A DNA stretch of 64,000 bases, taken from the NCBI GenBank assembly GCA_025558075.1, contig JAHLKF010000029.1, positions 62,001-126,000 on the forward strand, read 5' to 3'. Below, piece after piece: positions 7,355 through 11,157 of this stretch. Within the stretch, counting starts at the first letter, position 1; each line of letters starts with the position of its first letter. The notes below the pieces were generated by a model. It did no database searches and was not told the origin of the DNA. It saw only the letters and a program-made list of their open reading frames with translations. This stretch comes from Gaertneriomyces semiglobifer. Lineage: Eukaryota; Chytridiomycota; Chytridiomycetes; Spizellomycetales; Spizellomycetaceae. The position numbers were made by a program, and so were the translations under genes.

Positions 7355-8209
7355 TCAAGGATCAACGCTTTTGAAGCACACAGGACAAGAGCCCCGCAAG
7401 CTTACGTACGAAACGATGCACTGTTTGTGAAAGTAATGGCCAGAGCAGACCTTTAACTTGACCGCCTGGTACCCGCCGGTTTGTTCTTCGTCATCCGCAA
7501 ACTTCTCTTGGCAGATTACGCAACGGTCGTCCTTGTCAATGGCGGTTCGGTCCACCGCTTGCACTCCCCGACTATTATCTCGACGGCGAGCCAGGCGAGT
7601 TTTGCCCGTGTAGTTGTTTCGCTGGTAAAAAAGGTTTTGCACGTAGTCAAAATGAAACGTGTAGGTTGGCTCCAGTGAGAAAAAGGAGCCGTGCCTTAAA
7701 GAGGTTTGGCTTGTTCCCGCCTGGTATTCGCTCTCAATGTGTCTCGAGGTCGGTAGGTCGTACGGAATCCACTTGAAAAAATGGATCAGTGCCTCGCACG
7801 TAACGATGAGTGTTGATTGGAGTCATACTTGAGAACTATTGATGGCCCATTCCCAGTGACAGCTGATATCCTTGGCGGAAACTCGAAAGTGATTACACAT
7901 GCTGCAAGCGATTACTTCATTCTAGAGTGCGTGGTTTGCAAGTTGAATGCCGATCTGGGAGTGTCCGAGAGAAAGTAGGGGAGGGCTGTACACACCAAGT
8001 TGAGGTACGAGCAGGTGTCACACGTCCAAACTCCATTGGCGCCGGATGGTAAGAGACAAACCTCGCAGAATGTGCTGCCATGCTATTTTCCAGTATCAGC
8101 CTGAGCCAGCTTTTGAACTACTTCTGTGAACTTCACTGTATCTTACCGAATTATTGAACGTGCATGCCGAGCACGCCCACAGGTCACCGTTAGCGAAGGT
8201 GGCACTCAT
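7355..8209 (-). CDS. NZF-NZF-WWE-RING protein, predicted ADP-ribose-linked E3 ubiquitin ligase
   Basis: Four exons (8209-8147, 8082-7996, 7921-7829, 7771-7355) with in-phase introns of 57-74 nt give 219 residues. Two RanBP2-type zinc fingers come first, each split by an intron. Finger 1 has W11, C13, C16, N20, C27, C30; finger 2 has W40, C42, C45, N49, C56, C59. Both match W-x-C-x2-C-x3-N-x6-C-x2-C exactly. Finger 1 has the Thr-Phe pair typical of ubiquitin-binding NZF fingers. Residues about 71-145 fit a WWE domain (HWEW, then WIPYD, IE..Y, SL, TYTFHFDYVQ, YTGKTRLARR); the known WWE ligand is iso-ADP-ribose. A RING-H2 closes the protein (C165, C168, C190, H193, H196, C199, C210, C213). RING plus WWE occurs in RNF146 and Deltex, which ubiquitinate poly-ADP-ribosylated or Notch-pathway targets; the function here is inferred. 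Confidence 0.8.
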
Positions 8210-8613: not shown

Positions 8614-10513
8614 CTACACATCCTTCGATTCCGTCCCTTTCTTTGTTGCATCTCCCATAGTGTCCTCGCCCACTTCGTCCTTCAGAAGAATTCGCTTTCT
8701 AGTGAACGACTCTTTGTACTCTTTCACACCAAGTGCTATTATGAAGATGCTTCCAGCAAGGGGAATCAGCACTTTGAATGCGATACTCAAACTCTCCACA
8801 ACCGCACGCATAACATCGCTTCGCAGCGGTTCAGGATACGTGTGCACCAATTCCATTTCTCTGTTCACTTCCTCGAAGCTCTTAGAAGGAGCGTAGTCGG
8901 CCAGCTTGTCTGCAAGGACATTGTTGAAAGTAGTGCCAACAACGGCAAGACCAATCACTCCGCCAAGTTGCTGAGAAAAGTTGACCAAGGCGGTTGCGAC
9001 AGCGATATTTGAAAGTGAGACGGACGCTTGAACACCGATGATCCGCGCTTGAATCATCGTTCCGATACCGGCACCGGCGAGGATCAAGTAGCCGATTCGC
9101 ATGCCATTATTGGAACCCTCGTCAAGTGTGGAGATCATGCCGCATCCAACCGTGAGCAGAACGGATCCGATGAAAAAGGTAAACTTGTACCTGCCCAAAC
9201 GGGACATAGACTGGCCTCCTGCAATGGAGAACAGGGAGACGCTGAGGATCAGCGGGATGCATTTGATGCCCGCCTCAGTTGCGGATGCGCCGGTGACAAC
9301 TTGGAAATAGATACTATGACATTCGTAGGTTAGCAGATACCCCCAACTCAATAGCACGAACTTCGAATATGTACCTAATGAAGTAAACCATGGCAAAAAA
9401 GTTGGCGCCCAAGCAAAATGCGATCAACTGGATAAGGATGACACTCCAGTTCTCAAAAACGCCGCCGGGAATAACAGGCTCCTTTGCAATATTCCTTTCC
9501 ACATATATAAAGGCGATGATGGTTGCCGCACCGACAATGAACAACGCGATAGTTTGCGGTGCATCCCAGTCCCAGTCGCTCCCGCCCAGTTGAAGAGGTG
9601 TCAAAATAAGGGACGTACCAATGATCAACAGTGGGGTACCAAGGTAGTCGATGCGGCCGAACTTTTGCCTCAATGGAGCTTTCGGGCTCGGAATGTCGAG
9701 TACAAAGTAGATTACGGTACAAACCAAGGCGCCAAGAGGGAGATTGATCCAGAAGCACCACCTCCAGCCCACGCCGTCAGTAAAAGCACCGCCAATGAGC
9801 GGGCCAACCACACTCGAAACGCCAAAGATGGCTCCGAAAATGCCCTGGTACTTTCCACGATCTCTGAAACTAACCAAATCTGTCACGATGATAAGAATCA
9901 TGGCGAAGATGCCTCCTCCGCCGACACCAGCAATGGCACGGCCGATGATCAGCATGGTCATGGATTGGGCAGCACCGCAGAGGGCAGACCCGATCAGGAA
10001 GATAAAAAGAGCGGAGAGAAATGTTGGTTTACGTCCAAAGATGTCGGCAAGCTTGCCATAAGTCGGTGTGCAGGCAGTCGTGGACAACATGAATGCAGTT
10101 CCTATCCAAGCAACTTGCTGAAATGCGCCGAACTCCATAGCTATCCGCGTCGTGGCCGTTGAAACGATCGTCTGGTCTAAAGCAGCCAAGAATAATGCCA
10201 TGGCCAGGGCGCAGAATACGAGGATAAATTGCCCTCGATTTAGCGGATGGGCTACATATCCAACGTTCTTTGCCGGGGGAGCGGCGCCTTTCTCCACGTC
10301 TTCAATGCGAACCGGTTCCTCGCCGTCATTTATTGTCAAAGCATAATCGGATCCTTTCGCCTGCACGTCGACCGTCGTTGGCTTGGGTGGTTCAGTCGAT
10401 GATGCCAAAGCCGAGGGCATCACGCCAACGCTATTTGCATCGGCTGGAATTGATACTTTCATTTCGTCGACGTCTGCCAAAGGCTTTGTGGTTTCGCTAT
10501 TGGGAGGGGCCAT
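8614..10513 (-). CDS. MFS drug:H+ antiporter of the 14-TM (DHA2) type
   Basis: Two exons (10513-9375 and 9313-8614) give 612 residues. A roughly 100-residue hydrophilic N-terminus precedes the first membrane segment. DHA motifs are present: LDQTIVSTA in TM1, GKLADIFGRKP after TM2, GRAIAGVGGGG, and the antiporter motif C region SSVVGPLIGGAFT. The second exon continues with further hydrophobic segments, including SIAFKVLIPLAG near the end. Family members export toxins, drugs or siderophores from the plasma membrane or vacuole using the proton gradient; the substrate cannot be read from the sequence. Upstream in-frame codons reach 10558, but the first ATG is at 10513, so I start there. It is divergent from the barrel protein at 11158. 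Confidence 0.9.
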
Positions 10514-11157
10514 CTTGTCGGGGTCAGCAGAAGCACGTCGGGTGAGGGTACCCAGCAAAGGACAGGCGGACTACTTCTTATATGCAACAAAGTGCGGACA
10601 CGGATAACACTGGCTGAACTGTTCGAATCTTTGAAATTATTTCGGAGCAGTCATTGGAAAGTCATACTCAGTGATGCAAAAAGAAGGGTGGGACAAGCAG
10701 AAAAAGCGCTAAGCAGGTTGAAGGCCACAAGAACAATCTGACAAATCCGAAATGACTGCACTTGCTGCCTGCGATGAACGCCATGGTCCATTCCCCGCGC
10801 CCACGGCCATGGTCGCCTGGCGAGAATGAAATAAACGGAATTCCCCACGAACAAGAATGTCAACCGATGGGATTATTTTGCTCATGAGTCGAGTGAATCC
10901 AGTGACGACGGCCCCTTTCGCAACGGTTCAAGAAAGAGCGCGGCACCCCCATTTTTATTTTTTCCGGGAAGCGACACTGACGTGTGAAGGCACAGTCATA
11001 GAGTTGCCTGGCCCAGTCATCGTAGATGTTTCGGATCACGTACGGGATGGGAGTGTGAAATGAGACGGGAAAGCCACTCACTCCCTCAATCCCTCAGCTG
11101 TCCCGAAAATCGATTTCTTACCAAACCTCCTCCTTCAATCCAACCAATCATACAATC
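10514..11157. other. Divergent promoter region
   Basis: 644 nt between the ATGs of the MFS transporter (minus) and the alpha/beta-barrel protein (plus). A T-rich run lies near 10950. No gene is seen inside. Confidence 0.5.

Follow-up and report, generated by a model that had tools for sequence, protein, structure and literature searches.

A 219-residue chytrid protein with NZF, WWE and RING domains is a candidate ubiquitin ligase for ADP-ribosylated proteins

What is known of the connection between ADP-ribosylation and ubiquitylation comes mainly from animal ligases (RNF146, Deltex, HUWE1 and TRIP12). Here, we analysed a 64,000-nucleotide stretch of the genome of the fungus Gaertneriomyces semiglobifer (contig JAHLKF010000029.1, positions 62,001 to 126,000), referred to as the window, in which a minus-strand gene encodes a 219-residue protein that joins two NZF zinc fingers, a WWE domain and a RING-H2 domain. 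Gaertneriomyces semiglobifer belongs to the Spizellomycetales within the Chytridiomycota (NCBI taxonomy). We consider it probable, with moderate confidence, that this gene specifies a compact ubiquitin ligase whose targets are ADP-ribosylated proteins, and the best reading of its sequence is that the product would work like RNF146 and Deltex while belonging to neither. This proposal builds on the gene structure, the domains, the conservation of zinc ligands and ADP contacts, and the PARP and PARG genes of the same genome, all of which were observed.

Joined, the four exons read as 219 open codons followed by a stop, and all three introns ran from GT to AG with lengths of 64, 74 and 57 bases (Table 1). 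The spliced product was 100% identical over 100% of its length to the NCBI protein BC832DRAFT_566916 (P0001) of Gaertneriomyces semiglobifer, titled hypothetical protein. Since that record comes from the same assembly as the window, it shows that the splicing of other annotators agrees with ours and does not represent a second genome. We rejected chance or wrong splicing in view of the identical NCBI model, intron sites common to a paralogue and relatives in several genera. The four-exon model of the first-pass annotation, which had been made from the window sequence, therefore stands, and with it the claim that every domain except the RING is split: introns interrupt NZF1, NZF2 and WWE, and the RING is uninterrupted.

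The WWE domain (PF02825) scored 37.7 bits against a curated Pfam cut-off of 21.1 (E 2.6e-9), and the RING-H2 domain (RING_2, PF13639) scored 32.9 bits against 27.3 (E 7.8e-8), with its C3H2C3 ligands present. Both fingers fit the pattern W-x-C-x2-C-x3-N-x6-C-x2-C, that is, the 2-10-2 cysteine spacing with its tryptophan and asparagine, and the proposed content and order NZF-NZF-WWE-RING was borne out by these scores and this pattern. The best sequence match in the PDB overall was the Npl4 NZF, which aligned over residues 8-33 and hence with NZF1 (E 3.3e-4), while the PDB matches over NZF2 were fingers of Nup153, YY1-associated factor 2 and TRABID, the last at E about 0.05. Among the relatives, the finger of P0008 passed the Pfam cut-off (27.1 bits against 27), that of P0005 fell just below it (26.3), and the RanBP finger family was matched in 3 of 10 members at E <= 0.01. 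NCBIfam gave nothing above cut-off for P0001-P0003.

A single-sequence search yielded 3 passing records among 89 candidates, and alignment-based searches yielded 12 among 4345 at E <= 1 and 19 among 4409 at E <= 10. We aligned 17 members, comprising 11 named ones and 6 (P0014-P0019) that we took as metagenomic (labels jgi and ena, contigs of ~0.8 to 1.3 kb). Left out of the counts were P0020 (wheat NF-X1-like, 5.3e-6), P0012 and P0021, which we took as RING neighbours without WWE, and P0011 (69 residues, RING only). Among those kept, the beginning of the WWE domain is missing from P0003 and P0010. The named members came from Gaertneriomyces, Spizellomyces, Fimicolochytrium, Geranomyces, Thoreauomyces, Powellomyces and Phlyctochytrium arcticum. 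Among the three species looked up in NCBI taxonomy, Phlyctochytrium arcticum is placed in Chytridiales; the remaining named genera we take to be chytrids. A search for the same order in other zoosporic fungi had been suggested, and relatives with NZF, WWE and RING were found in several chytrid genera. The precomputed domain list of P0005 already shows finger, WWE and RING, and the public records are titled with names such as hypothetical or uncharacterized protein. The related genes in other chytrids point to a small family so far uncharacterised.

All eight RING zinc ligands and the CPxC proline were present in 17 of 17 members. The tryptophan, asparagine and four cysteines of NZF2 were kept in all 12 records that reach this finger, while NZF1 was found in 3 of 17, namely the window protein and those of Fimicolochytrium and Phlyctochytrium. 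The claim of two fingers thus holds generally for NZF2 and for NZF1 in three records only. However, P0002, P0018 and P0019 start at a methionine just before the last cysteine of NZF2, and P0006, P0007, P0009 and P0013 at one just before its tryptophan. These seven records may be missing upstream exons, in which case NZF1 would be commoner than 3 in 17. To judge from the records as they stand, NZF2 is the constant part of the family and NZF1 the extra. In a tree calculated from the WWE-RING part (18 rows, 157 columns, root arbitrary), 3 of 15 inner branches were firm, and the three two-finger proteins lay on separate branches of the chytrid part with mostly weak support. This arrangement fits an ancestral second finger that was lost, or missed, several times, and is not proof of it. 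In P0008 (Phlyctochytrium arcticum), a long, partly acidic insert separates the first and second ligand pairs of the RING, and the Geranomyces relatives carry shorter acidic runs at the same position.

Across the whole genome (20.9 Mb, 66 contigs), a search that ignores introns, and that a split WWE could therefore escape, found two WWE stretches, one in the window gene and the other on contig C17. The C17 gene splices to a 212-residue protein with one NZF, WWE and RING, and its two introns occupy the same positions as introns 2 and 3 in the window gene. Aligned without gaps, its product agrees in 200 of 212 residues with P0004, an annotated protein of a second Gaertneriomyces (sp. JEL0708). 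When the Gaertneriomyces semiglobifer genome was searched at the protein level, six matches came up at E <= 0.01, all of them from these two loci.

In crystal structures of human WWE ligases, a conserved glutamine holds the adenine, a tryptophan (tyrosine in RNF146) stacks, and a tyrosine and an arginine hold the near phosphate (PMC11269756). The contacts in HUWE1 are Trp1619, Tyr1658, Gln1667, Asn1669, Thr1672, Asn1674 and Arg1676 (PMC11269756). At the corresponding places the window protein has W75, Y118, Q131, N133, T136, K138 and R140, with identical spacing from glutamine to arginine, and the residues by which we judged membership among ADP-contacting WWE domains (W75, Y118, Q131, N133 and R140) are all present. 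Across the family, the tryptophan was kept in 15/15 members, the tyrosine in 14/16, and the glutamine, the asparagine and the arginine each in 17/17, with threonine or serine at the T136 position also in 17/17. Of the 73 columns, 13 are invariant, and these include four of six contact positions that we chose (P = 0.008, a rough value since the rows are related).

These residues also bear on which ligand is bound. The selectivity of RNF146 for iso-ADP-ribose has been tied to Tyr107, a position that is tryptophan in HUWE1 and TRIP12, which prefer ADP-ribose (PMC11269756). The window protein has W75 there, as a tryptophan stands in all 15 members having that residue, and because of this we lean towards a preference for ADP-ribose or poly(ADP-ribose) (PAR) ends over internal iso-ADP-ribose. 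It is a lean and not proof, since the DTX1 WWE also has tryptophan, yet binds iso-ADP-ribose better than ADP-ribose (190 µM versus 709 µM; PMC11269756). Against solved structures, the WWE profile matched DTX1 (1.7e-9), TRIP12 (6.9e-6), fly Deltex (3.8e-5), RNF146 (0.059 to 0.13) and HUWE1 (0.13). An iso-ADP-ribose reader had been proposed from the sequence; the WWE domain is there, but with its tryptophan it stands nearer DTX1, TRIP12 and HUWE1 than RNF146, and DTX1 shows that the tryptophan does not exclude the proposed ligand.

A genome without ADP-ribosyltransferases had been named as a refutation of the proposal, but this does not apply: PARP catalytic domains were found at three loci, together with a PARG, a macrodomain and two loci of the PAR-binding zinc finger PBZ. 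One PARP locus is PARP1-like, its neighbouring frames carrying zf-PARP, PADR1, BRCT and WGR besides the regulatory and catalytic parts, and another has WGR, regulatory and catalytic parts. Of the PARP catalytic motifs, those of histidine and tyrosine were seen at 3/3 loci and that of glutamate at 2/3; in the remaining locus it may lie across an intron. All three loci carry WGR, a mark of DNA-repair PARPs (PMC4245714), which makes DNA damage the likelier of the two settings that had been suggested, while the other, mitotic exit, found no support here. In the last of the three PARP loci, L018 (G000:C9:562001-569000), a long ankyrin-repeat frame precedes one that contains the WGR domain and the regulatory and catalytic PARP parts, and if these frames are one gene it would combine tankyrase-like repeats with a PARP of the DNA-repair type. 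The PBZ loci are L021 (G000:C1:1362658-1362726) and L022 (G000:C2:247008-247079); a 2014 survey stated that it was unable to find PBZ in Fungi (PMC4245714). About 1 kb downstream of L022 there is a DNA ligase domain on the same strand, an arrangement that recalls the ligase E with C-terminal PBZ reported in the fungus Mortierella (PMC10665377).

The fingers offer candidate ubiquitin-binding residues. NZF1 of TRABID binds ubiquitin via T14, Y15 and M26 (PMC4386640). By sequence comparison, T17, F18 and V29 of the window NZF1 fit a threonine-phenylalanine pair with a hydrophobic residue about 10 positions on, and S46, Y47 and M58 of NZF2 come close to the T-Y/M of TRABID. Across the family, the NZF2 positions hold serine (6) or threonine (6) in 12/12, an aromatic residue in 11/12 and methionine, valine or isoleucine in 12/12. 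For a specificity towards lysine-63-linked ubiquitin, which the first-pass annotation had raised, no support was found.

From these elements we infer the binding and catalytic steps. The WWE pocket would bind the ADP part of ADP-ribose or a PAR end on the target, typically a PARP or a PARP-modified protein, and the C-terminal RING-H2 domain would bring in a ubiquitin-loaded E2. The finger or fingers would hold ubiquitin, whether it sits on the E2 or on a target that has been modified before, a grip that would keep the enzyme bound and allow further ubiquitin to be added. The outcome, presumably in the setting of DNA damage, would be turnover or release of PARylated proteins.

Comparison with known systems delimits this proposal. 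RNF146 carries its RING before its WWE, whereas the window protein has the reverse order with fingers in front; together with the tryptophan at the Tyr107 position, this led us to reject membership of RNF146, whose chains are weak profile matches. Deltex (DTX1/2/4) is more alike in having WWE followed by RING-H2, and DTX1 is the closest WWE by profile. However, Deltex has tandem WWE domains and a DTC domain after the RING, while the window protein has a single WWE, added fingers and no DTC match, ending 6 residues past the last RING ligand, and membership of Deltex was rejected for the single WWE and missing DTC. A whole-genome DTC search gave no match, but its control likewise matched nowhere. 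TRIP12 and HUWE1 (482 kDa) are HECT ligases, in contrast to this 219-residue RING protein. Npl4, HOIP/RNF31 and TRABID resemble it in joining an NZF to the ubiquitin machinery, and fingers of Npl4, RNF31 and TRABID were among the sequence matches, but TRABID is a deubiquitinase and HOIP belongs to the RBR ligases. Consistent with the earlier statement that no family is known with two NZF fingers in front of WWE and RING, the titles and abstract openings of the open-licence PMC papers listed by our searches contained no description of NZF, WWE and RING in one protein.

Several results weigh against a ligase of this kind. RanBP2/NZF (PF00641) stayed below the Pfam cut-off of 27 in the window protein, with 10.4 bits for the whole protein, and each finger scanned singly was also below it (Table 1). 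The profile searches suggested in the first-pass annotation thus recovered WWE and RING but left zf-RanBP under its cut-off in the spliced protein, where the relatives back it. Both fingers are genuine by pattern and kinship, as far as these can tell, yet not callable from the window sequence alone. The structure model was poor at residues 1-69 (10-residue means of the predicted local distance difference test, 37-65), and with a predicted template modelling score of 0.48 it offers little guide to the arrangement of the domains. Serine replaces the NZF2 threonine in 6 of 12 members, and the T-F motif of NZF1 is kept in the window protein only, being absent in two of three NZF1s. Some WWE domains bind ADP-ribose weakly, as the DTX1 value cited above shows (PMC11269756). 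Finally, F214, directly after the last RING ligand, occupies the position of the usual cationic linchpin, where RNF126 has arginine in the sequence alignment. In most RINGs the linchpin closes E2~ubiquitin, although it varies among human RINGs (PMC12326332, section 6). It was phenylalanine in 11/11 named chytrid members and alanine (3) or lysine (3) in the 6 metagenomic ones. The R454F mutation in RNF38 raised the dissociation constant for E2~ubiquitin from 2.5 to 45.4 µM, an 18-fold weakening (PMC12326332); we equated R454 with F214, and the end of the fold alignment (458 with 218) agrees, without giving a residue-by-residue map. By this analogy the window RING may be weak or inactive alone, in which case it could be helped by a finger of its own chain that binds ubiquitin. 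The linchpin residues and the RNF38 mutant are also what would favour a reader or adaptor in place of an active ligase, in which WWE and NZF bind ADP-ribose and ubiquitin and the RING serves mainly for dimerisation or E2 docking, or needs a partner RING. We regard this as rather unlikely: the eight ligands and CPxC proline in 17 of 17 members suggest selection as an E2 binder, and the linchpin varies among human RINGs.

The WWE match to DTX1, and a Deltex-like protein with DTC and a look-alike RING (P0012) that the first profile search listed at E 0.45, raise the question of whether the gene is a Deltex derivative that lost its DTC and does the job of Deltex without ubiquitylating ADP-ribose itself. 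Such an origin would be compatible with the ligase proposal, but we think it unlikely, since there is one WWE and not two, the second profile search (E <= 10) did not bring P0012 back, and the RING profile matched RNF126, ARK2C, AMFR, RBX1 and others, with no Deltex chain in 36 matches at E <= 0.01. A Deltex-type RING was rejected on this last ground, though the two may still be kin. A further explanation severs the tie to ADP-ribosylation, with fingers that bind RNA or another protein, and a WWE that binds a free nucleotide such as ATP. RanBP2-type fingers elsewhere do bind RNA or other proteins (PMC7154859), Ran complexes were among the fold matches, NZF2 aligns with Nup153 fingers, and the WWE domains of TRIP12, DTX1 and HUWE1 have also been solved with ATP or an analogue. 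We judge this very unlikely, given that NZF1 is most like the Npl4 NZF, that NZF2 shows a sequence match to a TRABID finger, albeit a weak one (E 0.05), and that the genome encodes PARP and PARG. The ligase proposal also admits a bolder form, which we offer as speculative and doubtful: a fungal relay from ADP-ribose to ubiquitin separate from RNF146 and Deltex, in which a minimal RING ligase lacking the activating linchpin arginine would be active only with WWE on ADP-ribose and NZF supplying the grip on ubiquitin, an AND gate that would extend ubiquitin on doubly marked proteins.

Table 1. The ligase gene in the window, with its exons, introns and encoded domains (positions count from the first letter of the window).
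Feature	Positions	Strand	Basis
Whole gene, 4 exons, 219-residue NZF-NZF-WWE-RING protein	7355..8209	-	Spliced translation; identical NCBI protein BC832DRAFT_566916
Exon 1, codons 1-21, first half of NZF1	8147..8209	-	Spliced translation
Intron 1, GTAAGA...TAG, splits NZF1	8083..8146	-	Spliced translation
Exon 2, codons 22-50, second half of NZF1 and first half of NZF2	7996..8082	-	Spliced translation
Intron 2, GTGTGT...TAG, splits NZF2; site common to C17 paralogue	7922..7995	-	Splicing, paralogue comparison
Exon 3, codons 51-81, second half of NZF2 and start of WWE	7829..7921	-	Spliced translation
Intron 3, GTATGA...AAG, splits WWE; site common to C17 paralogue	7772..7828	-	Splicing, paralogue comparison
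Exon 4, codons 82-219 and stop, most of WWE and RING-H2	7355..7771	-	Spliced translation
NZF1, residues 10-33 (intron included), T17-F18/V29	8047..8182	-	Pfam 16.7 bits alone; Npl4 NZF best PDB sequence match; equivalents in P0005, P0008
NZF2, residues 39-62 (intron included), S46-Y47/M58	7886..8031	-	Pfam 17.8 bits alone; W, N and 4 Cys in 12/12
WWE domain, residues 70-145 (intron included)	7580..7864	-	
RING-H2, residues 164-214	7373..7525	-	Pfam 7.8e-8; 8 zinc ligands in 17/17

Elsewhere in the window, frames of a major facilitator transporter (MFS_1, the longer frame also matching TRI12) sit on the minus strand at 8614-10570, directly upstream of the ligase gene, and are probably unrelated to it. 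A minus-strand frame at 4529-4882 matches the acyl-CoA dehydrogenase N-terminal domain.

If the ligase proposal is true, this 219-residue protein would be a fungal form of the link between ADP-ribose and ubiquitin, uniting readers of ADP-ribose and of ubiquitin with a RING in a single chain, and would provide a very small model for how one ligase combines two marks. As only two WWE stretches were found in the genome by the intron-ignoring search, loss of just two genes might put the entire WWE branch of the pathway to the test.
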